Assembly: GCF_004216535.1 (NCBI RefSeq)
Contig: NZ_SGWX01000001.1
Span: 3,596,001-3,660,000, forward strand
Direction: 5' to 3'
Length of the DNA stretch: 64,000 nucleotides
Source: Xylanimonas ulmi
GTDB taxonomy: Bacteria > Actinomycetota > Actinomycetes > Actinomycetales > Cellulomonadaceae
Shown: positions 20,673-34,976 of the stretch, one piece after another
Numbering within the stretch: the first letter of the stretch is position 1
Layout: the number at the start of each line of letters is the position of its first letter
Translations under genes and position numbers: made by a program
The notes under the pieces: generated by a model
The model's database searches: none
What the model saw: only the letters and a program-made list of their open reading frames with translations
Told to the model about the DNA's origin: nothing

Positions 20673-22358
20673 ATGAGAAAGATCCGCAGGGGCTCGGCAG
20701 CTCTGGCGTCGGTCGCCACGCTCGCCCTCGCCCTGACTGCCTGCTCCTCGGGCGGCGACGACAACGCGTCGCCGAACGAGACTGGGGGCACGTCCGAGGC
20801 CACCATCGACGACGCCCACTCCGTGGGCGCGATGGACGACTTCGCGGCGGGCACGACGTTCAAGGCGACCGAGCCGGTCGACTTCTCGCTCATGTACCGC
20901 GACCACCCGAACTACCCGGTGAAGGACGACTGGTCGATCCTCCAGCACCTGGACTCCGACCACAACGTCACCTTCACGCGCACCGACGTGCCGCTGGCCG
21001 ACTGGGACAACAAGAAGTCGCTGCTCATCGGCTCGGGTGACTTCCCCGAGATCGTCCCGGTCACCTACGCCGGCCAGGAGACGCAGTTCGTCGCCTCGGG
21101 CGCGCTGCTGCCCGTGTCGGACTACCTGCAGTACATGCCGAACTTCGAGCAGAAGGTCAAGGACTGGGGCATCCAGGCCGAGCTCGACACCCACAAGCAG
21201 GAGGACGGCAAGCTCTACATCCTGCCCGGCCTGCGCGAGGTGCCGGACGTCCAGTACTCCGTCCTCATCAACGAGGAGATGTGGGAGAAGGCGGGCATCA
21301 CCGAGGACCCGGCCACGTGGGACGACTTCGCCGAGGACCTCAAGAAGGTCAAGGACGCGAACCCGGAGATCAAGTACGCGTTCTCCGACCGCTGGAACCA
21401 GACGCCCTCCCCGCTCGGCGCCTTCCTGCAGATGACCGCCCCGAACTTTAAGACCGAGGCGGGCTGGGACCAGGCCGCGATGACGTTCGACCAGGACGCC
21501 AAGAAGTTCGAGGTCGCGGGCACGTCGGCCAACTACAAGGACCTGGTGACCTACGTCTCCGGGCTCGTGAGCGACGGGACGCTCGACCCGGAGATCACGC
21601 AGACCGACGACCAGGCGATCCAGAAGTTCATCACCGGCCAGTCGGCGACCATCTCCGGCAACACGCAGTACTCCACCGACATTGGCGCCAAGCTCGCCGA
21701 CGCCGGCAAGTCCGACCTCAAGATGCGTCTGCTCACGCTGCCCGCCGGCCCGAAGGGCGACAACCTGCGCGGCTCGCAGCTGACCTCGGGCGTCATGATC
21801 TCGGCCAAGGCCAAGGACGACCCGCACTTCAAGGCGCTGCTGCAGTACATCGACTGGCAGTACTTCAGTGACGAGGGCCTCGAGTTCGCCCAGTGGGGCG
21901 TCGAGGGCGAGACCTTCCAGAAGGGCTCCGACGGCGCCCGCACGCTGCTGCCCGGCATCGACTGGAACGGCATCAACCCGGACGCCGGCGACAACCCGAA
22001 GCTGCTGAACACCGACTTCGGCTACTCCAACGGCGTGTTCATGCTCGCCAACGGATCGACGCGTGACCTGGTCCAGTCGGTCATGGCTCAGGACACCAAG
22101 GACTGGGTCAACTCGATCCTCGACCGCAAGACCCTGCTGCCGGTCAAGCCGTCGGCCGGCCTCAACGAGGCCGAGCTCGAGCAGACGTCGCTGCTCGAGA
22201 CCCAGGTGAAGGACGCCGTCAACACCGCGACGGCCGAGTTCATCACCGGCAAGAAGTCGCTGAGCGACTGGGACGCCTACGTCGCGCAGATCGACGGACT
22301 GGGCGGCTCGCAGCTCACCGAGCTCTACAACACCGCCTACCAGCGGTCGCAGGGCTGA
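20673..22358 (+). CDS. LipO-type extracellular solute-binding lipoprotein
   Basis: A 561-aa binding protein, longer than average as in the LipO/YtcQ group that pairs with LplBC permeases. The signal peptide ends at lipobox LTAC (Cys about residue 24), followed by a Ser/Gly/Asp/Asn linker. GAAGGAGA lies 7 nt before the ATG. It catches an oligosaccharide at the cell surface. The downstream GH39 enzyme suggests a xylo-oligosaccharide or similar plant-derived substrate, which is inference. A strong hairpin directly after its stop may stabilise the mRNA or reduce read-through into the GH39 gene. Confidence 0.92.
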   Translation: MRKIRRGSAALASVATLALALTACSSGGDDNASPNETGGTSEATIDDAHSVGAMDDFAAGTTFKATEPVDFSLMYRDHPNYPVKDDWSILQHLDSDHNVTFTRTDVPLADWDNKKSLLIGSGDFPEIVPVTYAGQETQFVASGALLPVSDYLQYMPNFEQKVKDWGIQAELDTHKQEDGKLYILPGLREVPDVQYSVLINEEMWEKAGITEDPATWDDFAEDLKKVKDANPEIKYAFSDRWNQTPSPLGAFLQMTAPNFKTEAGWDQAAMTFDQDAKKFEVAGTSANYKDLVTYVSGLVSDGTLDPEITQTDDQAIQKFITGQSATISGNTQYSTDIGAKLADAGKSDLKMRLLTLPAGPKGDNLRGSQLTSGVMISAKAKDDPHFKALLQYIDWQYFSDEGLEFAQWGVEGETFQKGSDGARTLLPGIDWNGINPDAGDNPKLLNTDFGYSNGVFMLANGSTRDLVQSVMAQDTKDWVNSILDRKTLLPVKPSAGLNEAELEQTSLLETQVKDAVNTATAEFITGKKSLSDWDAYVAQIDGLGGSQLTELYNTAYQRSQG

Positions 22359-22368
22359 ACGACCCCAC

Positions 22369-22403
22369 GCCGCCGCCCGTCAGCCTCGCTGGCGGGCGGC
22401 GGC
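22369..22403. terminator. Hairpin between binding-protein and GH39 genes
   Basis: GCCGCCGCCCG (22369-22379) pairs exactly with CGGGCGGCGGC (22393-22403); the loop has inner pairing TCAGC/GCTGG. There is no T-run, so it may be an attenuator or mRNA stabiliser within the operon rather than a full stop. Confidence 0.6.
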
Positions 22404-22508
22404 GCCGCGTGGAGGCCCCGCTCCCGCGGCAGTCGTGGGGCGAGACCCGCGCGGTTCGCCCCATTCGCCCCGTTCCACCCGAGCCACGACAATCCTGGAG
22501 CGCCTCCC

Positions 22509-24038
22509 GTGAGCAGCGTCATCGTTCCCTCTCAGCCGATCGGCGCCCTGAGCGACGCCTGGCGCAAGGTCGTCGGGACCGGCGAGTTCGTCCTCGGCCT
22601 GCGTCGCGACTATCTCGACTCGTTGGCGGTGGTGCAGGCGGAGATCGGGTTTGGCCATCTTCGGGGTCATGGGATCTTCCATGACTGGATGGGGTTGGTG
22701 CGTCAGTACGACGCGGCGGGTCATGTGGGCACGCGCTATGTGTGGACGTATCTGGATCAGATCGTGGACGCGTATCTGGAGGTCGGGATCAAGCCGTTCC
22801 TCGAGCTGGGGTTCATGCCCCAGGCGTTGGCCTCGGGCGATGAGACGGTGTTCTGGTGGCGGGGGAACATCACCCCGCCGCGCGACTACGCCGAGTGGGG
22901 CGCGTTGGTGCGCGCCACGCTGCGGCACCTGATCGACCGGTACGGGCTGGCCGAGGTGCGCACCTGGCCGATCGAGGTGTGGAACGAGCCGTCGTTGAAG
23001 GAGTTTTGGCAGGGCGCCTCGAAGTCGGAGTACTTCCGCCTGTATGACCAGACCGCGTTCGCGGTCAAAGACGTCGACGCGGACCTGCGGGTGGGGGGCC
23101 CGGCCACCTCCCCGGAGTCGGACGACTGGTACCTGCCGTTCGCCGAGCATGTGGCCGCCTCGGGCGCCCCGGTCGACTTCTTCTCCTTCCACGCCTACGC
23201 GACCGGCCCGGCCCAGCACGTCCCGTTCGGGGTGTACCAGACCCTGCGCCACCCCTCGACGCTGCTGGAGCAGTTCGCCCGCCCCCGCACTCTCCTGACG
23301 GGCACCGCGCTCGAGCGCCTGCCGATGCACGTGACCGAGTTCAACACCAGCTATCGGCCCGACAACCCGGTCCACGACACCGCCTACAACGCCGCCTACC
23401 TCGCCCCGACCCTGGTCGGCGGCGGCGACCTCGTCGACTCCTTCGCCTACTGGACCTTCTCGGACATGTTCGAGGAGCAGGGCGTGCCCGCCTCGATCTT
23501 CCACGGCGGGTTCGGGCTGCTGACCCACCGCCAGATCAAGAAGCCCACCTTCCACCTGTACGCGTTCATGGCCGCCATGGGCCCCGACATCCTGGCCCGC
23601 GGCCACGACCACCTCGTCACCCGCGACCACAACGGCCGCGTCGCCATCCTGGCCTGGCAGCCCGTGGGCGGCACCGACGACCCCGCCGAGCCCGACCACC
23701 ACCACCTGTCCCTGTCCGTGCCCGTGGCCCACCCCGACGGCACGGTCCCGGCCACCGCCTACGCCCACCGCTCACGCGTCAACGACGAGTCGGGCAACGC
23801 GTTCACCGCCTGGCAGCACATGGGCCGCCCCGCCACCCCGACCTCACGCCAGCTCGACGACCTGCACGCCGCGGCCGAGCCCACCATCACCCACCAGTCC
23901 CTCCCCCTGGACCCGACCACCGGCCGCGCCGAGATCACCCTCACCCTCGCCCGCCACGAGATCACCCTCCTCCAACTCACCCCGGTCCACGACGAGACCC
24001 CGCCATGGCTCGACGACGCCCGCATCCTGGGCCGCTGA
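22509..24038 (+). CDS. GH39-like glycoside hydrolase (beta-xylosidase type)
   Basis: A 509-aa intracellular glycosidase with no signal peptide. The GH-A clan acid/base Glu is in IEVWNEPSLKEFW and the nucleophile in MHVTEFNTSY. GFGHLRGHGIFHDWMGL near the N-terminus and FFSFHAYATG match the GH39 barrel, and a beta-sandwich accessory domain follows at the C-terminus. GGAG lies 9 nt before GTG 22509. It probably hydrolyses short xylosides imported by the adjacent ABC system. The 5' half (to about 23100) uses many more T- and G-ending codons than the 3' half, which is almost entirely C-ending. Confidence 0.88.
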   Translation: MSSVIVPSQPIGALSDAWRKVVGTGEFVLGLRRDYLDSLAVVQAEIGFGHLRGHGIFHDWMGLVRQYDAAGHVGTRYVWTYLDQIVDAYLEVGIKPFLELGFMPQALASGDETVFWWRGNITPPRDYAEWGALVRATLRHLIDRYGLAEVRTWPIEVWNEPSLKEFWQGASKSEYFRLYDQTAFAVKDVDADLRVGGPATSPESDDWYLPFAEHVAASGAPVDFFSFHAYATGPAQHVPFGVYQTLRHPSTLLEQFARPRTLLTGTALERLPMHVTEFNTSYRPDNPVHDTAYNAAYLAPTLVGGGDLVDSFAYWTFSDMFEEQGVPASIFHGGFGLLTHRQIKKPTFHLYAFMAAMGPDILARGHDHLVTRDHNGRVAILAWQPVGGTDDPAEPDHHHLSLSVPVAHPDGTVPATAYAHRSRVNDESGNAFTAWQHMGRPATPTSRQLDDLHAAAEPTITHQSLPLDPTTGRAEITLTLARHEITLLQLTPVHDETPPWLDDARILGR

Positions 24039-24064
24039 CCGCCCCGCGACGACAAACTGCCGCA

Positions 24065-24103
24065 GGGACGGCGTCGCGCCCGCGCGGGGGAGTGCGCCGT
24101 CCC
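24065..24103. terminator. Possible terminator after the GH39 gene
   Basis: GGGACGGCG (24065-24073) and CGCCGTCCC (24095-24103) form a 9-bp stem with a 21-nt GC-rich loop, between the GH39 stop and the LacI start. It is preceded by CGACGACAAACTGCCG (24047-24062), which matches one arm of the hairpin at 42274-42329 in 15 of 16 bases. Confidence 0.45.
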
Positions 24104-24154
24104 GCTCGGGGCCGATAGGCTCGCGCGATCTCACCTGCTGAGGAGCTGTTTGAC

Positions 24155-25129
24155 GTGGTCACGGTTCGCGACGTCGCCCGTGTGGCGGGCGTCTCCATCT
24201 CGACGGTCTCACGCGCGCTCTCGGCCCCCGAGAAGGTGGCCGCGCAGACCCGCGACCGCATCACCGCCATCGCCGACGACCTGGGCTACCAGCCCAACCG
24301 CGCCGCGGCGGGCCTGCGCGCGGGCCGCACCGGCGCCGTCGGCCTGCTGGTGCCCGACCTCGCCAACCCGTACTTCGCCGCCGTCGCCAAGGGAGCCGCC
24401 GCGGGCGCGCGCGCCCACGGGCTCGGGGTGTTCGTCGTCGACTCCGAGGAGGACCTGCGCCTGGAGGTCGACCTGCTGCGCAGCCTCGCCGCACAGACCG
24501 ACGGCGTCATCCTGGCCTCGCCGCGCGCGCTCGACGCCGATCGCCCGGCCGCGGGCGGCAAGCCCGTCGTCGTCGTCAACCAGGAGGGCCCGCTGGCCGT
24601 CGGCGTCGACAACGCGGGCGGTGTGAGCCTCGCGCTCGAACACCTGCGGGCGCTCGGGCATCGGCGGATCGCATACGTCGGCGGACCGGCGGTGTCCTGG
24701 TCGGACGCGCAACGGCGTGCCGCGCTCGCCACGGCCGCCGGGACCGGCGTCGAGGTCGTCGCGCTCGGCGCCCACAGCCCCACCGTCGACGGCGGCGCCG
24801 CGGCCGCCGCCTCGGTCATCGCCTCGCACGCCACCGCGGCGATCACCTTCAACGACGTCGTCGCGGTCGGCCTGGTGCGCGCCGTGCGCGCGCGTGGGCT
24901 GCGCGTGCCCGAGGATCTGTCGGTCCTCGGGTTCGACGACACGTTCCTGGCTCCGCTCGTGACGCCCGCGCTGACGAGCGTCGGCGCCGACCTGCGCGAG
25001 ATCGGACGCCGCGCCGTCGACCTGCTCGTGGGCCGGCTCGCCGCCGGGACCACCGAGGGGCCGACGAGGCGCCTGCTGCTGCCGGCCACGCTCGCGGTGC
25101 GCGAGTCGACGGCGCGCCCCCGCGCGTAG
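24155..25129 (+). CDS. LacI-family transcriptional regulator
   Basis: A 324-aa regulator. The helix-turn-helix VTVRDVARVAGVSISTVSRAL begins at residue 2, followed by the LGYQPNRAAAGLR hinge. The sensor domain shows VGLLVPDLANPYFA and LGFDDTFLAPLVTPALTSV. GAGGAG is 9 nt before GTG 24155. It follows the GH39 gene on the same strand and may be a second local regulator of sugar use, although its targets are unknown. Its TAG stop abuts the stop codon of the convergent M24 gene with no base between. Confidence 0.9.
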   Translation: MVTVRDVARVAGVSISTVSRALSAPEKVAAQTRDRITAIADDLGYQPNRAAAGLRAGRTGAVGLLVPDLANPYFAAVAKGAAAGARAHGLGVFVVDSEEDLRLEVDLLRSLAAQTDGVILASPRALDADRPAAGGKPVVVVNQEGPLAVGVDNAGGVSLALEHLRALGHRRIAYVGGPAVSWSDAQRRAALATAAGTGVEVVALGAHSPTVDGGAAAAASVIASHATAAITFNDVVAVGLVRAVRARGLRVPEDLSVLGFDDTFLAPLVTPALTSVGADLREIGRRAVDLLVGRLAAGTTEGPTRRLLLPATLAVRESTARPRA

Positions 25130-26266
25130 TCACAGTTCGAGGGGGAAGTCGCTCATCACCTCGCCGGCGTCAGGGCCGACGTAGATCATCCACTCAAGGC
25201 GTACTCCGCCAACGGCAGGGTCATAGGCGCCCGGTTCGAGCAGGATGACCATGCCCTCCTCCAGAGGGACGTCGACCCCCGGCGCGATCGTCGGGAACTC
25301 ATGGCTGGCGGCGCCGACGCTGTGTCCGGTGTGGTGGGGATAGGAATGGCCCTCTCGGGCGAGCGCCGAGCGTACGACCTCGTCCAGCGCGTGCGCTGTG
25401 ATCCCCGGGCGGATCGCCGCGATGCCGGCGTCGAGTGCGCGCGTGACGGCGGCGTGCATCGAACGCAGCGGGCGTTGTGCCTCGCCGAGGACGAACGTGG
25501 AGGCGCTGTCGCCCCAGTAGCCGTCCAGGCGGGGAGCCAGATCGGTGATGATCGGGTCGCTCTCCCTCAGGACCCGATCGGTTGCCCAGCCCACGATTCC
25601 CGCGGTGCGCTCAGATCCGGAGAGGAAGTCACCCGTCACCTCGCACCGGTGCCCGAGGGCGCTGTCCCACACGGCGCGAAGGTCGGAGAACACCTCGAGC
25701 TCAGTGCGCCCAGCGCGAGCGGCGCGACGCGCCTCGCGCTGAGCCGCCGATGTCAGCAGGGCACAGTTCCGCAGCGCCTCCATCTCCGCGGCGGTCTTGA
25801 CCTTCCGCGCCGCCCAGATCGCGTCGGTGCCGTCGACAAGCGTGTGGCCACGGGCGCGCAGCAAGTCGGCCACGGCGCCTGTCAGCGACCCGGTCTCGAC
25901 CAAGACGCCGCCTCTTCCGCTCGGCGCCACGGTCTGAACCACGGTGCGGACGGCCTGGACATACCGACTGATGGGCGTGACGGTTCCGAGAGTGTCGTCG
26001 CCATACTCGACGACGTGGTCGGCGCGCGAGGCGTAGGCCGCACTCGCGCGCATTCGGGGGATGATGAGCCACGTCGCTCCGTCGGGGGTGACGACGGCGA
26101 TGTCCGGCCCACCAGCCACGAATGGGACCCCGAGTTCCTGCGGGACGAGCAGTCCGGTTGCGTAGAAGACGGAGTCGTACCCGCTGAGCACAGCAAACCG
26201 CGCACCCGAAGCGCGCAGCGCGGCGGCGATCCTGCTCGTGCGCTCGTCGAGGAGTGCGGCGGTCAT
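25130..26266 (-). CDS. M24-family metallohydrolase (Xaa-Pro dipeptidase/creatinase-like)
   Basis: A 378-aa pita-bread-fold protein with an N-terminal creatinase-like domain (about 1-150) and a C-terminal M24 domain. All five metal ligands are visible: D and D 11 residues apart in TDLAPRLDGYWGD, H in HHTGHSVG, E in LLEPGAY and E in VRLEWMIYV. M24 members include proline dipeptidases and non-peptidases such as creatinase, ectoine hydrolase and the DMSP lyase DddP. ATG 26266 overlaps the stop of the MFS gene by 4 nt (ATGA), so the two are translationally coupled. Its role beside a sugar-acid-like pathway is unclear; it may hydrolyse a conjugate taken up by the MFS carrier. Confidence 0.85.
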   Translation of the reverse strand: MTAALLDERTSRIAAALRASGARFAVLSGYDSVFYATGLLVPQELGVPFVAGGPDIAVVTPDGATWLIIPRMRASAAYASRADHVVEYGDDTLGTVTPISRYVQAVRTVVQTVAPSGRGGVLVETGSLTGAVADLLRARGHTLVDGTDAIWAARKVKTAAEMEALRNCALLTSAAQREARRAARAGRTELEVFSDLRAVWDSALGHRCEVTGDFLSGSERTAGIVGWATDRVLRESDPIITDLAPRLDGYWGDSASTFVLGEAQRPLRSMHAAVTRALDAGIAAIRPGITAHALDEVVRSALAREGHSYPHHTGHSVGAASHEFPTIAPGVDVPLEEGMVILLEPGAYDPAVGGVRLEWMIYVGPDAGEVMSDFPLEL

Positions 26267-27621
26267 CGGACACCCACCCGACCCGTCACGGCACGGCGAA
26301 CAGGGTTGGTCTCCGGGGCGAACGCGCGCAGCACGATGATCAGAAGCGAGAAGCCGACCATGATGCCGTACACGATGTAGTAGGCGCCGGCGTTCGCGAA
26401 TCCGCCGTTGCGCTCGAGCACCTGAGACGCCAGAAGTGACCCAGCGACGCCGCCCAGCCACAGGGCAGTGAACACGACGCCGAGAACGGACCCGGTGCGG
26501 CGCCCGCCGATGTCCGACGCCGTCGAGAACAGCACCGGGAAGACGGCGTTGAGCGTGACCCCGTAGAGCAGTTGGACGGCGACGATCCCGAACAGGCTCG
26601 TCGAGACGGGCAACAACACGAACACCAACGCCTGGATCGCTCCAGCGAAGAGGATGAACCACTTGCGCCCGATGGCGTCGGTGAGCGTCGGCCACAGGTA
26701 CTGGAAGAACGCGCCGGTGATGCCCCACAGGACGCTCAGTGAGGCGACCGTCGCGAAACTGTAGCCGCCGACGAACTTGAGGTACTGCGGGTAGCTCGAC
26801 TGGAACACGTTCTGCATCGCCTGGAACAGGAGCGCACACGCAGCCACGATGAGCACGGACCGATTGCGGAGCACCTCGAGGCAACTGCGCACGGTGACCT
26901 TGTCGTGGGTCTCGGCCACCGACGGGGTCAGGCCCCGAGCGAGGGTCTCGCGGGTCACCGTCTCGAAGTTGTGCCTCCGGGACAGGAACCAGTACCAGAC
27001 TGCGAACGGCAGCGTCGCCAGCCCGATGAGGTAGGCGTAGCGCCAGGAGTCCTCCCCGAAGGTCGACAGGACCCATGACGTGAAGAACCCGCCCAGCATC
27101 GCGCCAATGGGGTACCCGGTGTGATGGAGTCCGACCGCAAAGCCCCGGTGCTCGCGCGGCCACCACTCGACGGTCGCGACGACGCCGATCGCCTCACTCG
27201 CGGTTGTTCCGAGGGCGATTCCGGCTAGGAGGAGAAAGAGGCCCAGCAGGGTGTCGGTCAGTCCCGGAACCGCGACGAGCGCGGCGAGGATCGAGTAGAC
27301 GATCATGACGGGGAACCACACCGTGCGACGCCGCCAACCGTTGCCCAGGCGGTCGCTGAGGATCGTCAGCGGGAGGTCGAAGACAACCCGCATGCCGAGG
27401 TAGCCCGCGATGAGCCAGCCCCATGCCGCGGGCGAGAGGTGGAACTCCTCGATGATCAGCGCGCCGAGGTTGTACAGCATCGTGAACGTCACGACGTTGA
27501 GCGCCCACGTGATCCATGTGTTGAGCAGCGTCAGCCAACTCAGCCGTGAGGCGCCGCGCGGGACGAGCCGGACTCTCGGCCTGGAGCGGGGTGGGGCGGC
27601 CTGGTCGAGCGAGGTGTTCAC
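26263..27621 (-). CDS. MFS transporter, first of the catabolic cluster
   Basis: A 452-aa permease with 12 predicted helices and a hydrophilic N-terminus. DLPLTILSDRLGNGWRRRTVW is the helix 2-3 loop signature (GxxxDRxGRRR type), and VEWWPREHRGFAVGLHHTGYPIGAMLGGF covers helices 4-5. AAGGAGAG precedes GTG 27621. It is divergent from the TIM-barrel gene and co-transcribed with the M24 gene. An operator-like CCTATAGG site (27703-27715) lies about 80 nt upstream. Substrate unknown, probably a small organic acid or sugar derivative. Confidence 0.85.
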   Translation of the reverse strand: MNTSLDQAAPPRSRPRVRLVPRGASRLSWLTLLNTWITWALNVVTFTMLYNLGALIIEEFHLSPAAWGWLIAGYLGMRVVFDLPLTILSDRLGNGWRRRTVWFPVMIVYSILAALVAVPGLTDTLLGLFLLLAGIALGTTASEAIGVVATVEWWPREHRGFAVGLHHTGYPIGAMLGGFFTSWVLSTFGEDSWRYAYLIGLATLPFAVWYWFLSRRHNFETVTRETLARGLTPSVAETHDKVTVRSCLEVLRNRSVLIVAACALLFQAMQNVFQSSYPQYLKFVGGYSFATVASLSVLWGITGAFFQYLWPTLTDAIGRKWFILFAGAIQALVFVLLPVSTSLFGIVAVQLLYGVTLNAVFPVLFSTASDIGGRRTGSVLGVVFTALWLGGVAGSLLASQVLERNGGFANAGAYYIVYGIMVGFSLLIIVLRAFAPETNPVRRAVTGRVGVR

Positions 27622-27702
27622 GGTCTCTCCTTCGTGACCTGTGGCGGTGCGTTCATGCCGACGGTGGTCAGCCGCACGCGGGCGTCAGTGCCTAGATCCT
27701 GG

Positions 27703-27715
27703 ATCCTATAGGGAT
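27703..27715. promoter_or_regulatory. Operator-like site 1 (CCTATAGG core)
   Basis: ATCCTATAGGGAT has the same CCTATAGG centre as the exact palindrome at 27780-27793, 78 bp away. It sits on the MFS side of the divergent promoter region. Proposed target of the GntR/FCD regulator at the end of the cluster. Confidence 0.55.
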
Positions 27716-27779
27716 TGCTGCCGCTGTCAACGGTTTCGCCGACGACCGGGACGCGCTTGACCGAAGACCCGACATGGTG

Positions 27780-27793
27780 TTTCCTATAGGAAA
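27780..27793. promoter_or_regulatory. Operator-like site 2, exact 14-bp palindrome
   Basis: TTTCCTATAGGAAA is a perfect palindrome 27 nt before the ATG of the TIM-barrel gene, well placed to block transcription. An AT-rich palindrome stands out in this GC-rich background. Confidence 0.65.
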
Positions 27794-27819
27794 TACGAAC
27801 TCGGATCGACGGAGATCAC

Positions 27820-28749
27820 ATGCGCACCGCTCAGACCTGGCCCATCGCGGCCAACATGTTGTCGTTCGGCTCTCGGGCCGCGGACGGCACCCCCAATCTG
27901 CTGGCCCCGGCAGAGTCATGGGTCGCCCAGCTCGCGCAGGTGGCGGACCTCGGGTTCACCGAGGTCGACCCCACAGATGCATGGCTGTCGATCGGGGAGT
28001 TGCCCGAGGCCCGCTTCGCCGAGCTGCTCGTCGTCCTCAAGGAGGTCGGGCTCACGGTTCCTTCGGTCTCGACGACTCGGCGCAGCGTCGTCGACGTCGC
28101 TCGGGGCGACGACTACTTGCGATGGGGACACGCGATCGTCGACCGGGCTCCTGCGCTCGGGGCGGAGGTCGTGAACTTCGGGTTCATGCAGGCCCTGACC
28201 CCCGCGCAGGAGCGGGCGCTCTGGTTCTGGCTCGCCGATGGCCACCATGACGATCTCTACGACAACGAGACGCGCGACCTGGCGGTGCGGCGTATCCGCG
28301 AGTTGGCCGACCACGCCGCCCAGGTCGGCGTGCAGATCAGCCTCGAGATGTACGAGGACACGTATATCGGCACCCCTGACCTGGCTGTTCAATTCCTCGC
28401 CGACGTCGACCGGGAGAACGTCGGGCTCAACCCGGACCTCGGGAACTTGGTCCGCCTCCACCGCCCTGTCGAGGACATTCCGACGATGTTCGAGAAGGTC
28501 CTGCCGTACACGAACTTCTGGCACATCAAGAACTACACGCGTGACGAGGACCCGATCGCGGGCACGTACGCCACGTTCCCGACGCCGCTCGTGCAGGGGG
28601 TAGTCAACTACCGCGCCGTGATCCGCCGAGCGCTCGATTTTGGTTTCGAAGGCGTCTTCGTCTGCGAGCACTACGGTTCTGACAGCCTCGGCGTCGCGGC
28701 GATCAACCGCGACTACATCCGCGAGGTGCTGCGCGGCGCTGGCCGCTGA
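27820..28749 (+). CDS. Xylose-isomerase-like TIM-barrel protein (AP_endonuc_2 fold), possible 3-oxo-acid decarboxylase or isomerase
   Basis: A 309-aa cytosolic TIM barrel. Metal-binding-type residues are visible in QISLEMYEDTY (Glu), VGLNPDLGNLVRLH (Asp, His), FWHIKNYTRDEDP (His) and FVCEHYGSDS (Glu, His), the usual spacing for this superfamily. It heads the plus-strand operon, with GGAG before ATG 27820. Relatives include hydroxypyruvate isomerase, the 2-oxo-tetronate isomerase OtnI, EryC and the 3-oxo-isoapionate decarboxylase OiaC. Because the downstream genes look like L-erythrulose enzymes and a 3-hydroxyacid dehydrogenase, an OiaC-like decarboxylation yielding L-erythrulose is my preferred reading, but isomerisation is possible. 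Confidence 0.8.
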   Translation: MRTAQTWPIAANMLSFGSRAADGTPNLLAPAESWVAQLAQVADLGFTEVDPTDAWLSIGELPEARFAELLVVLKEVGLTVPSVSTTRRSVVDVARGDDYLRWGHAIVDRAPALGAEVVNFGFMQALTPAQERALWFWLADGHHDDLYDNETRDLAVRRIRELADHAAQVGVQISLEMYEDTYIGTPDLAVQFLADVDRENVGLNPDLGNLVRLHRPVEDIPTMFEKVLPYTNFWHIKNYTRDEDPIAGTYATFPTPLVQGVVNYRAVIRRALDFGFEGVFVCEHYGSDSLGVAAINRDYIREVLRGAGR

Positions 28750-28808
28750 CGGCCCCGCGTCGACGGCGCCCGCGCCCGTCCCCATTCGACTGAACAAAGG
28801 TGTAGGTC

Positions 28809-30548
28809 ATGACGTATGTCCACAATCGACCCGAGGACTTTGCGCGGGAGGCCCTTAGTGGCCTGGTGAAGGCGCACCCCGGGCGTCTGCGATCCGTTCC
28901 GGGCGGTGTCGCCCGCGCGGACGGGACGCGACCTGGCAAGGTCGCCGTCGTCGTCGGAGGCGGCTGCGGGCACTACCCCGCGTTCGCCGGTCTGGTCGGC
29001 GACGGGGTCGCCGACGCCGCGGTGTGTGGGGAGATCTTCGCCTCGCCGTCCACCCGACAGGTGATCGACGTGTGCCGCGCGGCCGACGCCGGCGCCGGCA
29101 TTTGGCTCGCGTTCGGCAACTACGCCGGCGACGTGCTGAACTTTGGCGCGGCCGCGAGCAGATTGCGCGCCCAAGGGATCGACGTCGTCGTCCAGGCGGT
29201 GACCGACGATGTGGCGTCCGCGCCCACGGAGCGGGTGACCGAGCGTCGAGGAGTGGCCGGCGACCTCGTCGTCTTCAAGATCGCGGGCGCGGCCGCCGAG
29301 GCTGGCGCCGACCTGGCGGAGGTCTCGCGCCTCGCCGCGCTAGCCAACGAGCGCACGCGATCGTTCGGCGTGGCGTTCGACGGTTGCACGCTTCCTGGGC
29401 GCAGCCATCCGCTGTTCTCACTGCCCGACGCAACGGTCGGTTGGGGGCTCGGCATCCACGGCGAGCCGGGCATCGGTGACGAGCCGCTGCCGAGTGCCGC
29501 TGACCTGGCCGACGAACTCGTCGAACGCGTGCTCGCCGAACGCCCGGCCGGCGCCGAGCGTGCCACCGCCGTGCTGAACGGTCTCGGCACGGTCAAGTAC
29601 GAGGAGCTCTTTGTCCTGTGGGACCAGGTGACGGACCTCCTCGCCACGAGCGGCGTCACCCTCATCGCGCCGCTGGTCGGTGAGTATGTGACGAGCCTCG
29701 ACATGGCAGGGTGCTCGCTGACGGTGACGTGGCTCGACGACGAACTCGAGCCCCTGTGGCTCGCACCCGCCGATACCCCCGCGTTCCATCACGGGTCGTG
29801 GCGGCCCGCGCCCGTGGCGCCGGCTCCGCAGGTCGCAGCCGAGCCTGAACCAGTGCTGACCTTGGCCCGGACACCCGAAGCGCGTGACGCGGCCGCGACG
29901 GTCCTGCACGCCATCGAACGCGCGCAGGCGGTGCTGCACGAGGCCGCGCCGCGACTTGGCGAGCTCGACGCAGTGGCAGGCGACGGTGATCACGGGATCG
30001 GTATGTGCCGAGGAGTGGATGCCGCGGTAGACGCCGCGCGCACCGCCGTCGGGTTCGACGCAGACGCCCCCTCGGTGCTCAGGCGGGCGGCCGACGCGTG
30101 GGCTGACCGCGCGGGTGGCACGTCAGGCGCACTGTGGGGGATCGGACTGCTTGCCGTCGCCGAGCACCTCCCGCCCGAACGGACTGCTGGCGTGGCGCAC
30201 GTCGTGGCCGGCGCCCGCGCTGCGCTCGACCAGGTCGCCGAGGTCGGTGGAGCGCGCCCTGGGGACAAGACGCTGGTCGATGCTCTGAACCCGGCGGTCG
30301 ACGCCCTCGAGGCCGCGGTCGGCACCGGTGCGAGCCTGGCAGACGCGTGGGCAAGCGCTGTGCGGGCGGCCGAGCACGGCGCGCGGCGGACTGCGGACAT
30401 CGTGGCGAGGCGTGGCCGCTCCCGTGTGCTCGCAGACAAGAGCCTCGGTACGCCTGATCCCGGAGCGACTTCTCTGGCCCTTCTCCTGCGGGAGGTCGGC
30501 TTGACCCTCGCAGCGACCGTTCCTGACGAGACGAAGGTGGGTGCGTGA
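28809..30548 (+). CDS. DhaK-DhaL fusion kinase, probable L-erythrulose (or dihydroxyacetone) kinase, LerK-like
   Basis: A 579-aa single-chain ATP-dependent kinase. The N-terminal DhaK domain (about 1-330) has the substrate loop [19 protein letters not shown] and the covalent-binding His in [10 protein letters not shown]. The C-terminal DhaL domain (about 355-570) has the nucleotide-site aspartates in [11 protein letters not shown]. Such fusions phosphorylate dihydroxyacetone or, in tetritol pathways, L-erythrulose. The next two genes are RpiB- and TpiA-like, exactly the partners of LerK, so L-erythrulose is the likely substrate. The gene ends in a TGATG overlap with the RpiB-like gene. Confidence 0.88.
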
Positions 30549-31042
30549 TGGCTGGCCTGCGCATTGTTGTCGGTGCTGACGACGCTGGATACGACTACAA
30601 GGAGATCCTGAAGAGGGATCTGGGAGCCGACGATCGGGTGGCGTCTGTGACCGACGTCGGCGTCGGGGGCGACGAGCACACCCACTATCCGTATGTCGGT
30701 GCGGCCGCCGCCCGCATGGTGGCCTCCGGTGAGGCCGACAGGGCCCTGCTGATCTGCGGGACAGGGCTCGGCGTCGCGATCGCAGCCAACAAGGTGCCTG
30801 GCGTCCGCGCCGTGACGGCCCACGACTCGTTCTCTGTCGAGCGTGCGGTGCTCTCCAACGACGCCCAAGTGCTGTGCATGGGTCAGCGCGTGGTCGGGGT
30901 TGAGCTGGCGCGCCGCCTGGTGCGCGAGTGGCTGGGGTACAGGTTCGACCCAGCCTCGCCTTCGGCCCCGAAGGTCGCGGCGATCGGCGAGGTGGAGGCG
31001 GGGGCCGACATCCTGCCTGAACCGGTCGGGGCGTGCGGGTGA
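30548..31042 (+). CDS. RpiB/LacAB-family sugar-phosphate isomerase, DerI/EryI-like
   Basis: A 164-aa RpiB-fold isomerase. Key features are [19 protein letters not shown] at the N-terminus, the catalytic Cys in [22 protein letters not shown], and the [22 protein letters not shown] segment. ATG 30548 overlaps the upstream stop as TGATG; GTG 30545 is a less likely alternative. In erythritol and threitol pathways this family member converts D-erythrulose 4-phosphate to D-erythrose 4-phosphate. The first-strand HAGY motif of classical RpiB is DAGY here. The role rests on the neighbours. Confidence 0.88.
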
Positions 31043-31803
31043 CCACGCCCCTCGTCGCAGTCTCGCTCAAGGCCTACCTGGGCGCCGCGCAGACACGCGT
31101 CTGGCTGGGCGGTGTGCGAGCACTCGCCGACGCCGGTCGCGTCCCCGCAGACGTCGAGCTGGCGGTGCTGCCCAGCATGCCGTTGCTTCCCGCGGCCGTG
31201 GAGCTGCTCAGCGGAACACACGTGGCGTGGGGCGCCCAGGACGTGGCTCCTGGCTCCGGCGGCGCTCAGACCGGCGCTGTCACCGCCGCGCTCCTGGCCG
31301 AACTCGGCTGCCGTTTTGCCGCGGTTGGGCACGCCGAGCGGCGCAGCCTGTTCCGAGAGACGGACGCCGATGTGCGTGCCAAGGTCGCCAGGCTGAAGGC
31401 AGACGCGCTCACACCGATTGTGTGCGTGGGTGAGGTCGAACGCATCGGCGCACGCGCGGCCGCGGTGGCCGCCTCCGACCAGCTCGCAGCGGCCCTCGCG
31501 GGGACAGAGGCGGGCGAGGTTGTTGTGGCGTACGAACCCGTCTGGGCCATCGGGGCGCCACAGCCTGCTGGCGGCGATCACGTCGCCGCCGTCGCGCACG
31601 CTGTGCGCGAACGTATGCAGGACCTGGGCTGGCGGGGTCGCGTGCTCTATGGCGGCGCTGCCGGCCCGGGCACGCTCGGGGCGCTCGGCGCCAGTGTCGA
31701 CGGACTCTTCCTCGGCCGCTTCGCGCACGACCTCGGCGCTCTCGCCGAGGTGCTGGACGAAGCCCGGACGGCGGCGCCACGCGCCGTCGGCGCCGGGGCA
31801 TGA
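31039..31803 (+). CDS. Triosephosphate-isomerase-family protein, LerI/EryH-like tetrulose-phosphate isomerase
   Basis: A 254-aa TIM. Catalytic Lys is in VSLKAYLG, catalytic His in GHAERRSLF, and catalytic Glu in [11 protein letters not shown]. The usual N-terminal NWK is replaced by SLK, so the phosphate-end Asn is Ser, a change seen in divergent paralogues rather than the glycolytic enzyme. The start GTG 31039 overlaps the stop of the RpiB-like gene (GTGA). Paralogues in tetritol clusters (EryH, LerI) interconvert L-erythrulose 1-phosphate and D-erythrulose 4-phosphate; the context strongly suggests the same here. Confidence 0.87.
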
Positions 31804-31832
31804 TCACGGATCACCACAAGGAAGGAAGACCA

Positions 31833-32792
31833 TTGGTCACCACCATCACGAGCGTTGCGGTCGTCGGCGCCGGTTATATGGGCGGCGGCATCGCGCAGTC
31901 GCTCGCGCTCGCCGGACTCCCCGTCACGATCGCCGACGTCTCTGCTGACGCCACGTCCGCAGCCTACGAACGCCTACTCATCGAGGCGCGCGATTTCGAA
32001 GACGCCGGCCTGTTCGATGTCGGAGCCGCCGAGAAGATCAGAGCGAACCTGCGCACGGCGTCCTCGATCGAGGAGGCCGTCGCAGACGTCGACTTTGTCG
32101 AGGAGGCAGTCTTCGAGTCTGTCGAGGTGAAGCACGAGGTGCTCTCCCGCATCTCGGCGGCGGCTCGGCCCGAGGCGATCATCGGCTCCAACACGTCGAC
32201 CATCCCGGCCCGAGTCCTTGGAACAGTCGTCAAGCACCCCGAGCGGTTCCTCACGGTGCACTTCTCCAACCCGGCTCCGTTCATTCCGGGCGTGGAGTTG
32301 GTGCTGGGGGAGCACACCGACGAGGCCATCGTGCCGGTCGTCAAGGAACTCCTCACGACGGCCGGTCGGCAGGCGGCGCTCGTTGCGGACGTCCCGGGGT
32401 TCGTGCTCAACCGCCTCCAGTACGTGCTGCTCAAGGAGGCGATGTCAATCGCCGAGGAGGGCATCGCCTCGCCCGAGGACATCGACACAGTCGTGCGCAC
32501 CACGTTCGGGTTCCGTCTCGGGTTCTTCGGCCCGTTCGCCATCGCCGACCAGGCGGGGCTCGACGTCTACGCGAGCGGATTTCGCACGTTTGAGGAGGCA
32601 TTCGGGGAACGTCTGGCGACGCCACAACTCGTGCAGGACGCTGTGGCGTCGGACCGCCGTGGCGTGAAGAACGGCAAGGGACTGTTGCGCGATTACACGC
32701 CCGAGGAGGTTAAGGCGCTGGTCGCCCACCGCAACAGGGCGTACAGCGAGATGGGCCGCCTCGTGCGCTCTCTCGGCTCCACCCCGGCCTGA
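31833..32792 (+). CDS. 3-hydroxyacyl-CoA dehydrogenase-family oxidoreductase, possible 3-hydroxy sugar-acid dehydrogenase
   Basis: A 319-aa NAD-dependent dehydrogenase. The Rossmann motif is VAVVGAGYMGGGIAQSLA, and the catalytic His and its environment are in FLTVHFSNPAPFIPGVELV, followed by the C-terminal 3HCDH domain. I place the start at TTG 31833 because AAGGAAGGA ends about 5 nt before it; an upstream in-frame ATG at 31800 overlaps the previous stop but has no such site. The family includes L-gulonate 3-dehydrogenase and carnitine dehydrogenase as well as acyl-CoA enzymes. With no other fatty-acid gene nearby, oxidation of a sugar acid at C3 fits better. Confidence 0.83.
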   Translation: MVTTITSVAVVGAGYMGGGIAQSLALAGLPVTIADVSADATSAAYERLLIEARDFEDAGLFDVGAAEKIRANLRTASSIEEAVADVDFVEEAVFESVEVKHEVLSRISAAARPEAIIGSNTSTIPARVLGTVVKHPERFLTVHFSNPAPFIPGVELVLGEHTDEAIVPVVKELLTTAGRQAALVADVPGFVLNRLQYVLLKEAMSIAEEGIASPEDIDTVVRTTFGFRLGFFGPFAIADQAGLDVYASGFRTFEEAFGERLATPQLVQDAVASDRRGVKNGKGLLRDYTPEEVKALVAHRNRAYSEMGRLVRSLGSTPA

Positions 32793-32853
32793 GTCCGGGC
32801 AGCAGCACCCAACCAGCGCGCCGGCCAGGCGCCGAAGACGAAGGAGTCTTGGA

Positions 32854-34197
32854 GTGGTCACCGTCCACGAGGCAGACATTGTCAAGCGCGTCACGCGCAA
32901 ACTGCTACCGCTGCTCGTCGTCCTGTACACCGTCGCCTACGTCGATCGGTCCGCCGTCGGATTCGCCCAGCTCCACATGGGCGCCGACCGCGGCATTGGC
33001 GATGCGGCCTTCGGGCTCGGTGCAGGTTTGTTCTTCATCGCGTACTTCCTGTTTGAGGTGCCGAGCAACGTCCTCATGCAGAGGTTTGGGCCGCGCATGT
33101 GGTTTGTGAGGATTCTCGTGACGTGGGGCGCCATCACGATGCTCATGGCGCTCACACAGGGGCCCGGGACCTTCTACGTCCTGCGCTTCCTCCTGGGCGT
33201 TGCCGAGGCCGGGTTCTATCCCGGAGTGATCTTCTACCTCACGACGTGGTTCCCCCACCGTCACCGCACGAAGGCCACCGGCATCTTTGTGATCTCGGCG
33301 CCGTTGGCCTTCCTGCTGATGTCTCCGCTCGCCGGATGGCTGCTCGAAGTCGAAGGGCTCGGGATGGTCGGCTGGCAGTGGCTTTTCCTCGTCGTCGGGG
33401 CCACGGCTGTGCTTATGGCGCTGCCGACTTGGCGGTATCTGCCCGAGGGGCCCCGGTCGGTGAAGTGGCTCTCGCGAGCCGAGGCCGACTGGATCGAGGG
33501 CGAGTTGGCGCGTGACAAGGTCGAGCGTGGCCAGGAGGACGGCAAGAACCCGCTGCGAACTCTCGTGGACAAGCGCGTGTTGACGTTCGCACTTCTGTTC
33601 TTCCCCTCGACGGTGGGTGTCTACGGCCTCTCCTTCTGGCTGCCCCAGGTGGTCGACAGGTTCTCGGGGTCGACGCTGAACACCGGGCTGTTGACCGACG
33701 TGCCCTACGTTTTCGCCCTCGTGGGTGTGCTCGTCACGTCGCGCTGGGCTGCCAAGAGGTTCCGCGACAACTGGGTGCCGCTTGCGGTGCTGTTCGTCGG
33801 CGCCGGAGTCGGCATGGGCGCGAGCGCCTTCTTCACGACCCCGGCCCTGCAACTTGCGGCGCTCTCGCTCGCGGCGTTCTGCGTCTACTCGATCGCTGGT
33901 GTGTTCTGGGCGCTGCCCAGCGGCGTGCTCGCGGGCGCGACGGCGGCGGTGGCCATCGCCGCGATCAACTCGTTCGGCAATCTCGGCGGGTTCATCGGCC
34001 CCTATGTCGTGGGCGTGTTCACGCAGGCATCTGGGAGCACCGCCGCGGGGATGTACTTCCTGATGGCCGTGCTGTGGCTCGGCGCGCTCGGGACCGTCAT
34101 CGCGCGCCGCGCGATCGCCCGCCTACAGCGATCTGTCGTCGCTTCCCGTGACGATGCGGACGAGGTCGTGGTGACCGTGGGCACGAGCGCCGCCTGA
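32854..34197 (+). CDS. MFS transporter, ACS type, second permease of the cluster
   Basis: A 447-aa permease with 12 predicted helices. VDRSAVGFAQLHMGAD, FFIAYFLFEVPSNVLMQRFGPRMW and RFLLGVAEAGFYPGVIFYLTTWFP are classic ACS-family segments, shared with hexuronate, phthalate and tartrate carriers. AAGGAG lies 7 nt before GTG 32854. It is the last gene of the operon and is followed by a strong bidirectional terminator. An ACS carrier supports a carboxylated substrate (a sugar acid) for the pathway. Confidence 0.88.
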   Translation: MVTVHEADIVKRVTRKLLPLLVVLYTVAYVDRSAVGFAQLHMGADRGIGDAAFGLGAGLFFIAYFLFEVPSNVLMQRFGPRMWFVRILVTWGAITMLMALTQGPGTFYVLRFLLGVAEAGFYPGVIFYLTTWFPHRHRTKATGIFVISAPLAFLLMSPLAGWLLEVEGLGMVGWQWLFLVVGATAVLMALPTWRYLPEGPRSVKWLSRAEADWIEGELARDKVERGQEDGKNPLRTLVDKRVLTFALLFFPSTVGVYGLSFWLPQVVDRFSGSTLNTGLLTDVPYVFALVGVLVTSRWAAKRFRDNWVPLAVLFVGAGVGMGASAFFTTPALQLAALSLAAFCVYSIAGVFWALPSGVLAGATAAVAIAAINSFGNLGGFIGPYVVGVFTQASGSTAAGMYFLMAVLWLGALGTVIARRAIARLQRSVVASRDDADEVVVTVGTSAA

Positions 34198-34212
34198 CCG
34201 GCGACAGAGGCA

Positions 34213-34256
34213 GCGCGTGAGGCCGCACCCCAGGCCCGGGGTGCGGCCTCACGCGC
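34213..34256. terminator. Strong bidirectional terminator, 19-bp perfect stem
   Basis: GCGCGTGAGGCCGCACCCC (34213-34231) pairs exactly with 34238-34256 around a 6-nt loop AGGCCC. It lies between the convergent MFS and GntR genes and can serve both. Confidence 0.88.
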
Positions 34257-34286
34257 ATGCTCAGGGAGCGTGAGGCGGTGAGGCCC

Positions 34287-34976
34287 TCAGGCGTCGTGCC
34301 GCTCCGCGAGCGAGCGACTCTTGACAGCCTCGATATGCGCTCGCATCAGATCTCGCGCTCGGTCACTGTCACCGTCACGGAGCGCGACGAGGACCGCGCG
34401 GTGTTCTGCCACCGCCTGGTCGCGGTCGGTCACCCCGACGCCGGAGAACTGGCGGAACCGCTGGATCAGGCCGCCGAGAGCCTGATAGGCGGCCAGCAGG
34501 TATGGGTTGTCCGCAGCCTCCGCGATGAGTTGATGGAACCGTTCGTCCGCGGCCCAGTAGTCGCGAAACTCCTGGTAGGTGGGCCCAGTGCGGACGGTCT
34601 CAAGCAGAGTCACTGCCTCGTCGAGTTCGGCGAGGAACTGCCCGGTGCCGCGCTGTCCCGCGTGCCACGCGCTCACCGGTTCGATGGCGATCCGCGCGTC
34701 CATCAGGTCGGCCAACTCCTTGTCGGTGGGCGACGGCGCCACCGAGTAGCCGCGTAGTGCCACCCGGCGGACCATGCCTGTCGACTCAAGTCGTGCCAGC
34801 GCCTCGCGCACGGGTGTCGGTGAGACGTCGAGCTGCCGTGCGATCCCGTCGATGTTCAGACTGCTGCCCGCCGCGAGGCTCCCGTCGAGCAGCATTGCCA
34901 AGAGCTCGTCGAAGACGTGGTCCGCGAGCAGCCTGCGCCGCAGCGGTGCGCCAGTGGATCGGGAGGTTGCGGGCAC
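34287..34976 (-). CDS. GntR-family regulator with FCD domain, probable regulator of the adjacent cluster
   Basis: A 229-aa repressor. The N-terminal winged helix contains GIARQLDVSPTPVREALARLESTGMVRR. The FCD sensor domain shows the metal-ligand positions DARIAIEP, ERFHQLI, AEHRAVLVAL and RAHIEAV, which coordinate a metal that helps bind small carboxylates. It closes the 25-35 kb cluster, convergent with its last gene. The CCTATAGG palindromes at 27703-27793 are its likely operators. The start is GTG 34976 with TAGACT 6 nt upstream and no ribosome binding site, so it appears leaderless. Confidence 0.9.
   Translation of the reverse strand: MPATSRSTGAPLRRRLLADHVFDELLAMLLDGSLAAGSSLNIDGIARQLDVSPTPVREALARLESTGMVRRVALRGYSVAPSPTDKELADLMDARIAIEPVSAWHAGQRGTGQFLAELDEAVTLLETVRTGPTYQEFRDYWAADERFHQLIAEAADNPYLLAAYQALGGLIQRFRQFSGVGVTDRDQAVAEHRAVLVALRDGDSDRARDLMRAHIEAVKSRSLAERHDA

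Follow-up and report, generated by a model that had tools for sequence, protein, structure and literature searches.

Gene content of the locus

We examined a 64,000-nucleotide stretch (the window) of the 3.97 Mb genome of Xylanimonas ulmi, in which a TIM-barrel protein, a dehydrogenase of the 3-hydroxyacyl-CoA dehydrogenase family (3HCDH) and a LerK-like kinase are encoded by a conserved, regulated unit that probably takes a sugar acid to L-erythrulose. The conserved unit spans 27780-34976. It opens with an operator-like palindrome, TTTCCTATAGGAAA (27780-27793), 26 bases before the start codon of the gene for the TIM-barrel enzyme (27820-28749, plus strand; 309 amino acids, 5tnv family; PF01261, 90.5 bits against a cut-off of 31.1). 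On the same strand follow a DhaKL fusion kinase resembling LerK, the L-erythrulose 1-kinase (28809-30548), a DerI-like isomerase of the RpiB family (30548-31042) and a LerI-like isomerase of the TpiA family (31033-31803), the first two placed by similarity to their counterparts in Pantoea At-9b and the third by similarity and motifs. Next come the NAD-dependent 3HCDH (31833-32792; PF02737 and PF00725), proposed here as a sugar-acid 3-dehydrogenase, and a carrier of the major facilitator superfamily (MFS), ACS type (32854-34197), for which the best model, TIGR00893, scores 271 bits, below its cut-off of 395. A convergent gene for a GntR/FCD regulator (34287-34976, minus strand; PF00392 and PF07729) closes the unit. 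The likely start of the 3HCDH is TTG 31833, preceded by AAGGAAGG; the frame is already open from ATG 31800. By TIM barrel, the nearest named relatives in a collection scan and a tree are Promicromonosporaceae (actinobacteria), at 83-85% identity.

The probable lower pathway

The reference apionate-type set was plasmid pPAT9B04 of Pantoea At-9b, which carries genes for a DhaKL, a TpiA, a TIM barrel and a PGDH_C protein, with RpiB and transketolase nearby. From context we take these proteins to be LerK, OiaC, ApnO and their partners. The NCBIfam models OiaX and OiaK match related Rhizobium and Paraburkholderia loci that hold a protein annotated with the same PGDH C-terminal domain, which confirms the apionate reading for those loci, not for Pantoea.

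The window DhaKL is 52% identical to the Pantoea kinase (506 bits, against 208 and 75 bits for its own-genome paralogue), and by sequence the fusion is nearer to the apionate-type kinase, itself a LerK by context only, than to the host dihydroxyacetone (DHA) kinase. Both isomerases behave in the same way: RpiB is 46% identical to its Pantoea counterpart (120 bits, against 48 for the own-genome RpiB), and TpiA is 47% identical (200 bits, against 114 for the housekeeping TpiA) and has the motifs SLK, GHAERR and YGGxAGPG of the Pantoea type (SLK/GHAERR/YGGSAGPG) instead of the housekeeping NWK/GHSERR/YGGSVKSSN. The DerI model NF051858 (Rhizobiales; cut-off 240) is missed by the window RpiB, at 148.8 bits, and by the Pantoea counterpart, at 179.2; the window protein passes TIGR02133, an actinobacterial model named ribose-5-phosphate isomerase (193.8 against 168.2). 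PMC10733421 describes LerK, LerI and DerI as leading from L-erythrulose to erythrose 4-phosphate. The sequence-only reading, made earlier from this DNA without searches, had assigned the genes to that route, and the comparisons with the Pantoea set and the host paralogues agree: the kinase and isomerases are likely to form a LerK/LerI/DerI-type lower pathway from L-erythrulose to D-erythrose 4-phosphate.

DhaKL belongs to the DHA-kinase family, and a C4 acid (threonate or erythronate) might instead be oxidised at C3 and decarboxylated to dihydroxyacetone, with DhaKL as the DHA kinase. Some relatives of the locus do encode DenD-like and PdxA-like enzymes, both of them types described from C4 acids. 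Such a route is nonetheless improbable, given that the kinase and both isomerases resemble the apionate-type set more than their paralogues in the host, that with housekeeping TpiA and RpiB already present it is hard to see what extra copies would do, and that some loci also contain ApnO- and OiaC-like genes.

Survey of related loci

With the TIM barrel as seed, a scan of 84,980 genomes yielded 136 places that were confirmed, of which the best 80 were kept (L007-L086); 12 of these loci are shorter than 15 kb. Genes were counted by tblastn up to 10 kb on each side of the TIM barrel, and the figures in brackets below are the loci in which identity to the query is at least 40%. DhaKL was found in 62 loci (62), RpiB in 53 (52), 3HCDH in 52 (52, the lowest identity being 52%), GntR in 49 (25) and TpiA in 48 (10), mostly of another type: among the 48 TpiA genes, eight carry GHAERR, 39 GHSERR and one neither. 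Other dehydrogenases are SDR enzymes in 32 loci (28), PdxA-like proteins in 11 (8), 2-hydroxyacid dehydrogenase-like proteins in 11 (9) and DenD-like proteins in 5 (5); some dehydrogenase family is present in 78 (75). When the count is restricted to the 68 loci of at least 15 kb, DhaKL is present in 57, 3HCDH in 47 and some dehydrogenase in 67. Apionate-type genes are rarer, with OiaC-like genes in 11 loci (11) and ApnO-like genes in 10 (10). The carriers are GntP permeases in 34 loci (32), ACS-type MFS proteins in 19 (13) and TctA in 11 (6). These acid-type carriers together mark 55 of the 80 loci (47), which supports the earlier proposal that the substrate is an acid; we regard this as very probable.

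Wherever the survey found the 3HCDH, it lies on the same strand as the TIM barrel (52 of 52 loci), and in 30 of these it is at most 300 bases away. A test not seeded on linkage used 396 genomes drawn from the phylum, in which the TIM barrel was called at E ≤ 1e-30 and up to five candidates were scored per genome. The TIM barrel occurred in four of the drawn genomes (X. ulmi included), and 3HCDH proteins above 300 bits were confined to the same four, where the gap to the TIM barrel is 39 bases, 63 bases, about 2.4 kb and about 3.1 kb. Because both are restricted to the same four genomes and lie near each other, their co-occurrence is not a matter of chance. The next-nearest 3HCDH group in the draw comprised 12 genomes of one family, at 225-256 bits and with no TIM-barrel hit. 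We set it aside: in one such neighbourhood (L163), the 10 of 24 listed frames that were scanned included no TIM barrel and one protein with PhaC-like alpha/beta hydrolase domains.

A separate observation concerns the spread of the TIM barrel. The copy of Carnimonas, a gammaproteobacterium (L072, 9989-10918), nests within the Brachybacterium branch, in a locus with the operator and a 3HCDH, and was likely acquired by transfer between phyla.

The dehydrogenase

The nearest solved relative of the window 3HCDH is FHMPC dehydrogenase (4om8, 174 bits), which acts on a free carboxylic acid. Lambda-crystallin (3ado), which would be expected to come first if the protein were an L-gulonate 3-dehydrogenase, scores 107 bits. 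The 3HCDH proteins of the cluster keep Ser, His, Glu and Asn (S120, H141, E153 and N191 in the numbering of P0005) in 53 of 53 aligned rows; we take these to be the catalytic residues, as in human HAD. They also carry HFSNP or a near form of it, with the Ser invariant in all 53, where the aligned paralogues have Phe or Tyr (16 of 16).

The Pfam families of the protein, and its matches to 21 NCBIfam families including PRK08269 (208 bits), might suggest an ordinary beta-oxidation or 3-hydroxybutyryl-CoA dehydrogenase that is present in the cluster by chance. We consider this scarcely credible. The curated cut-offs of all 21 families are missed. A further 13 genomes were selected among those whose locus has a 3HCDH, and in them the cluster copy scores at least 333 bits and the best paralogue at most 146. 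There is no tight clustering with the 3-hydroxybutyryl-CoA dehydrogenases represented by these paralogues and curated models, an outcome that the sequence-only reading had named as one that would refute its proposal. An ApnO homologue is likewise out, since the protein has PF02737 and PF00725 in place of PGDH_C (PF16896) and no pairwise similarity to Pantoea ApnO. As judged from these alignments and scores, the 3HCDH is a subfamily of its own, of unassigned function, encoded next to the TIM barrel.

Enzymes of the 3HCDH family oxidise beta-hydroxy acids or their CoA esters. The cluster protein lies far from the 3-hydroxyacyl-CoA dehydrogenase paralogues of the same genomes. As had been supposed, the 3HCDH is a good candidate for the oxidase of the acid, and we think the assignment likely. 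The open-licence literature returned no paper on pentonate 3-dehydrogenase terms, and one paper with 3-oxo-isoapionate.

Probably interchangeable upper modules

The ApnO-like family of the survey is 57% identical to Pantoea ApnO. In 10 of the 80 loci ApnO- and OiaC-like genes both lie within the same 20 kb as the TIM-barrel module, and DhaKL is visible in seven of the ten, in one copy each. Three of these loci (L044, L046 and L066) have a minus-strand series of OiaC, ApnO and GntP, then DhaKL, RpiB and TpiA, with the operator before DhaKL and the TIM-barrel module divergent. Two different upper modules thus appear to feed one lower pathway. This apparent sharing of one lower set with an ApnO/OiaC-type module is the strongest indication that the TIM-barrel module, too, ends at L-erythrulose. 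The sequence-only reading had entertained an apionate-like acid; the same neighbourhoods make D-apionate itself unlikely as the substrate, since near the module ApnO- and OiaC-like genes are already at hand.

The dehydrogenase and carrier also change while the core stays. The TIM-barrel tree pairs two Isoptericola loci as sisters (99/81), L008 (strain QY 916) with 3HCDH and MFS and L011 (strain 4D.3) with PdxA and TctA, and both keep TIM barrel, DhaKL, RpiB and TpiA in order. In L021 an SDR and an MFS carrier occupy the dehydrogenase-carrier slot. On firm branches of the tree the 3HCDH label changes at least 13 times, a figure inflated by cut contigs. PdxA, Tct genes, TIM barrel and DhaKL are found together on Sinorhizobium pSymB and on Pararhizobium and Paracoccus plasmids. 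The best reading is that this core acts as a funnel which several acids enter through interchangeable dehydrogenase-carrier pairs (elsewhere PdxA with Tct, or SDR with MFS).

Among solved structures, FabG reductases come closest to the L021 SDR. Enzymes of the 3HCDH family act on L-3-hydroxy acids and FabG-type SDR enzymes on D-3-hydroxy acids, and this opposite specificity fits substrates that are C3 epimers.

The SDR genes bear on another explanation, that the locus is an erythritol or threitol operon in which the SDR or the 3HCDH is the tetritol dehydrogenase. LerK, LerI and DerI do serve tetritol catabolism (PMC10733421), 28 of the 80 loci have an SDR gene of at least 40% identity, and the GolD/DthD model, whose cut-off is 286, gives one SDR of L066 a score of 133 bits. 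This explanation is very improbable. The carriers are of acid type (GntP, ACS-type MFS, TctA), the window operon has no SDR, the FabG relationship of the L021 SDR points elsewhere, and a 3HCDH would be expected to act on beta-hydroxy acids or CoA esters. The absence of a tetritol dehydrogenase noted earlier holds for the window proteins scanned, among which none was identified, and the neighbourhood survey identified none as a conserved partner, the second outcome that the sequence-only reading had named as refuting.

Beside these families, a 3-hydroxyisobutyrate-dehydrogenase-like protein (PF03446/PF14833) at L039 12035-13009 (plus strand) recurs in nine of the 80 loci, with at least 40% identity in seven, and is possibly one more of the alternative dehydrogenases.

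The predicted operator and its candidate regulator

The palindrome TTTCCTATAGGAAA has no other match in the window at up to three mismatches, and none in 100 shuffles; when the entire genome is searched with one mismatch allowed, TTCCTATAGGAA occurs at a single place. Across the 80 loci (1.53 Mb), TCCTATAGGA was found in 55 copies in 41 loci, and the best of 319 other palindromes of like composition reached 12. Within 350 bases before the TIM barrel there are 37 sites (32 loci), and before DhaKL 22 (19 loci), with both in 12 loci; sites between divergent genes were counted for both genes. A set of 13 whole genomes holds 21 distinct sites of ATCCTATAGGA in 11 genomes, 20 of them assigned to the cluster by contig number or spacing, and the reversed control gave 0; the X. 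ulmi and L012 sites have T for the first A of ATCCTATAGGA. The sole site away from the cluster precedes an ACS-type MFS gene (L192, 44-1537, minus strand; TIGR00893, 300.6 bits against the cut-off of 395), likely a further carrier of the regulon. As a predicted operator, then, the palindrome TCCTATAGGA ties the TIM-barrel and kinase operons into one regulon.

A GntR relative of at least 40% identity is present in 19 of the 41 loci with TCCTATAGGA and in 6 of the 39 without it; at any identity the numbers are 33 and 16. We infer that the GntR/FCD protein binds TCCTATAGGA.

The TIM-barrel enzyme

The TIM barrel matches PDB entry 5tnv at E 2.9e-118 and 59% identity, and its structure model (pLDDT 95.2) at TM 0.96. 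The entry is a Xylose isomerase-like TIM barrel protein of Mycobacterium smegmatis, solved with magnesium; its title names no function, and 5TNV is mentioned in none of the papers searched in the open-licence literature. Seven residues, E176, D206, H235, E283, R87, K237 and R241, do not vary across the 28 aligned rows, and the Glu-Asp-His-Glu set (the first four) is presumably the metal site of the PF01261 family. In the structure model R87 stands three residues after strand 3 and K237 directly after strand 7. The OiaC-like proteins (six rows) have an invariant Arg, R78, two residues after strand 3 and an invariant Lys, K192, directly after strand 7, and the similar placement may be a hint of carboxylate binding.

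The sequence-only reading gave the TIM barrel an OiaC-type reaction, the decarboxylation of a 3-keto acid. By homology it is not OiaC: comparison with Pantoea OiaC gives E 0.19 pairwise and 2e-4 over 72 columns, this comparison resting on one proxy (Pantoea At-9b) and the OiaC-like family f14, whose member in L026 is 44% identical to Pantoea OiaC. The presence of an OiaC-like gene beside the TIM barrel in the same loci leads to the same conclusion. Among seven ApnO-bearing plasmid neighbourhoods viewed, a TIM barrel is annotated next to ApnO only in Pantoea At-9b. The chemistry may still be shared. Three points favour a decarboxylase: the product of a 3HCDH would be a 3-keto acid, L-erythrulose could then arise without an epimerase, and there is a parallel in the L-gulonate pathway, in which L-gulonate 3-dehydrogenase, of the 3HCDH family, works ahead of a separate decarboxylase (PMC12435205). 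We put the prospects of this assignment at about even.

Neighbouring genes

Upstream of the unit lie a second MFS gene (26263-27621, minus strand), divergent and of doubtful membership, with a relative in one of the 80 loci (31% identity), and a gene for an M24 peptidase/prolidase-family protein (25130-26266, minus strand; PF00557, 138 bits), with relatives in none of the 80. As the pair (25130-27621) recurs in so few loci, it falls outside the conserved cluster, and the M24 gene is probably outside the pathway. The sequence-only reading named only families that are present; it had included this second carrier, which does not belong to the conserved cluster, and had mentioned neither the M24 gene nor the operator palindrome. 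Within the interval 27621-27820 an imperfect operator copy, ATCCTATAGGGAT (27703-27715), stands before the divergent MFS and overlaps a minus-strand TTGACA-16-TAGGAT match, and the pair may be co-regulated in this strain.

Farther out, genes for a solute-binding protein, a GH39 glycoside hydrolase and a LacI regulator (20673-25129, plus strand) end one base before the M24 gene and look like a separate sugar system. A single open frame at 37900-40164 (plus strand) joins a luciferase-like monooxygenase (PF00296) to an FAD-binding oxidase domain (PF01565, with a weak BBE), in what looks like an unusual fusion.

A proposed pathway

The sequences themselves show the gene content, its conservation, the module swap, the common operator and the ApnO/OiaC-like neighbourhoods; we infer all the reactions, the C5 size of the substrate, the decarboxylation step and the pairing of regulator with site. 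The cluster would be an inducible catabolic operon. The MFS carrier (32854) would import a C5 sugar acid, the 3HCDH would oxidise its C3 hydroxyl with NAD+, and the metal-dependent TIM barrel would remove CO2 from the 3-keto acid to give L-erythrulose. The acid would be an L-pentonate, its C4 becoming C3 of the ketose. The LerK, LerI and DerI homologues would then form L-erythrulose 1-phosphate, D-erythrulose 4-phosphate and D-erythrose 4-phosphate in turn, with the GntR/FCD protein repressing through TCCTATAGGA. Taken whole, the model has in our judgement an even chance of being correct. A wider version, in which the members of the 5tnv family are new beta-keto sugar-acid decarboxylases forming L-erythrulose and are the hub for C3-epimeric pentonates delivered by 3HCDH, SDR or PdxA pairs, under one GntR-type operator in many actinobacteria, is offered more tentatively and falls somewhat short of that.

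Several observations weigh against the model. The locus counts are conditional on the TIM barrel as seed, and the 80 loci kept of 136 include many close kin. In one of the four drawn genomes with the TIM barrel, another 3HCDH, of 314 bits, is encoded elsewhere. The exact TCCTATAGGA site is absent from 39 of the 80 loci, including all nine Pseudomonadota-branch rows of the tree. PdxA-family enzymes usually bring about decarboxylation themselves, so that in PdxA loci a separate decarboxylase would be redundant. DenD-like dehydrogenases occur near the TIM barrel in five loci, in three of them with no kinase in view, and the DenD namesake oxidises a C4 acid, at what we take to be C2. After 5tnv, the nearest solved folds are Art22 isomerase, UlaE and D-tagatose/L-ribulose 3-epimerases. 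Finally, the TIM-barrel profile scores OiaC-like proteins (97.3) about as high as hydroxypyruvate-isomerase-like ones (96.6), and IolE-like ones at 70.0, and so does not separate OiaC from hydroxypyruvate-isomerase-like proteins. Of the ten comparators of each kind, whose frames were picked by mutual similarity, 1 passes the curated cut-off of TIGR03234 and 0 that of TIGR04379.

The profile scores, together with the folds and the PdxA-type (11 of 80) and DenD-like partners, would also suit a funnel in which the TIM barrel is an isomerase or epimerase (D- to L-erythrulose, or a 2-keto to a 3-keto group) and CO2 is lost spontaneously or on the dehydrogenase. We consider this unlikely, although it is the alternative to which we give most weight. 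The structure model of an OiaC-like protein, presumably a decarboxylase from its family name, is also closest to the same epimerases, so the rank of folds says little about the reaction. For D-acids a D-erythrulose kinase would be a shorter way, as in the D-threitol pathway, and the L-erythrulose made by ApnO and OiaC, for which the same kinase is apparently used, arises without an epimerase.

In L078, L080 and L081 (Pseudomonadota) the gene ahead of the TIM barrel encodes a DenD-like protein, and DhaKL is not in view; against the D-erythronate dehydrogenase model, with its cut-off of 325, the DenD-like protein of L081 reaches 453.9 bits. In these loci the TIM barrel may serve another end.

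Comparison with known systems

If decarboxylation by the TIM barrel is correct, a function would be given to a structurally solved orphan family, 5tnv, and sugar acids would have an oxidative-decarboxylative entry into the erythrose 4-phosphate pool. This would be a pentonate route beside the dehydratase routes, separate from the apionate route but with the same lower half, and in soil actinobacteria and rhizobia one lower pathway would be fed by swappable upper modules. We take Mycobacterium smegmatis to be the source of the tetritol pathway (EltD, LerK, LerI, DerI). The window shares its lower half with that pathway as given in PMC10733421, where an E. coli growth selection for erythrose 4-phosphate is also published; it differs in its acid-type carriers and in that no tetritol dehydrogenase was identified in the operon.

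Another related system is the D-apionate pathway with non-phosphorylated decarboxylation, reportedly described by Carter et al. in 2018. Its genes are those of ApnO, OiaC, LerK, LerI and DerI. Both systems would take a C5 acid to a beta-keto acid and, by a PF01261 decarboxylase, to L-erythrulose, the upper steps being those proposed here for the window, and then through LerK, LerI and DerI (46-52% identity). The window dehydrogenase, unlike that of the apionate route, is a 3HCDH without pairwise similarity to the PGDH_C protein, and the TIM barrel, of the 5tnv family, is a distant relative. PMC6302742 cites Carter et al. 2018 for the D-apionate pathway.

The L-gulonate system of lambda-crystallin and the 3-dehydro-L-gulonate decarboxylase C11orf54, described in PMC12435205, differs from the window in its C6 acid, its DUF1907 decarboxylase (C11orf54) and its more distant 3HCDH. 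The logic proposed for the window is the same: oxidation at C3 by an enzyme of the 3HCDH family, followed by a separate decarboxylase that would yield a ketose.

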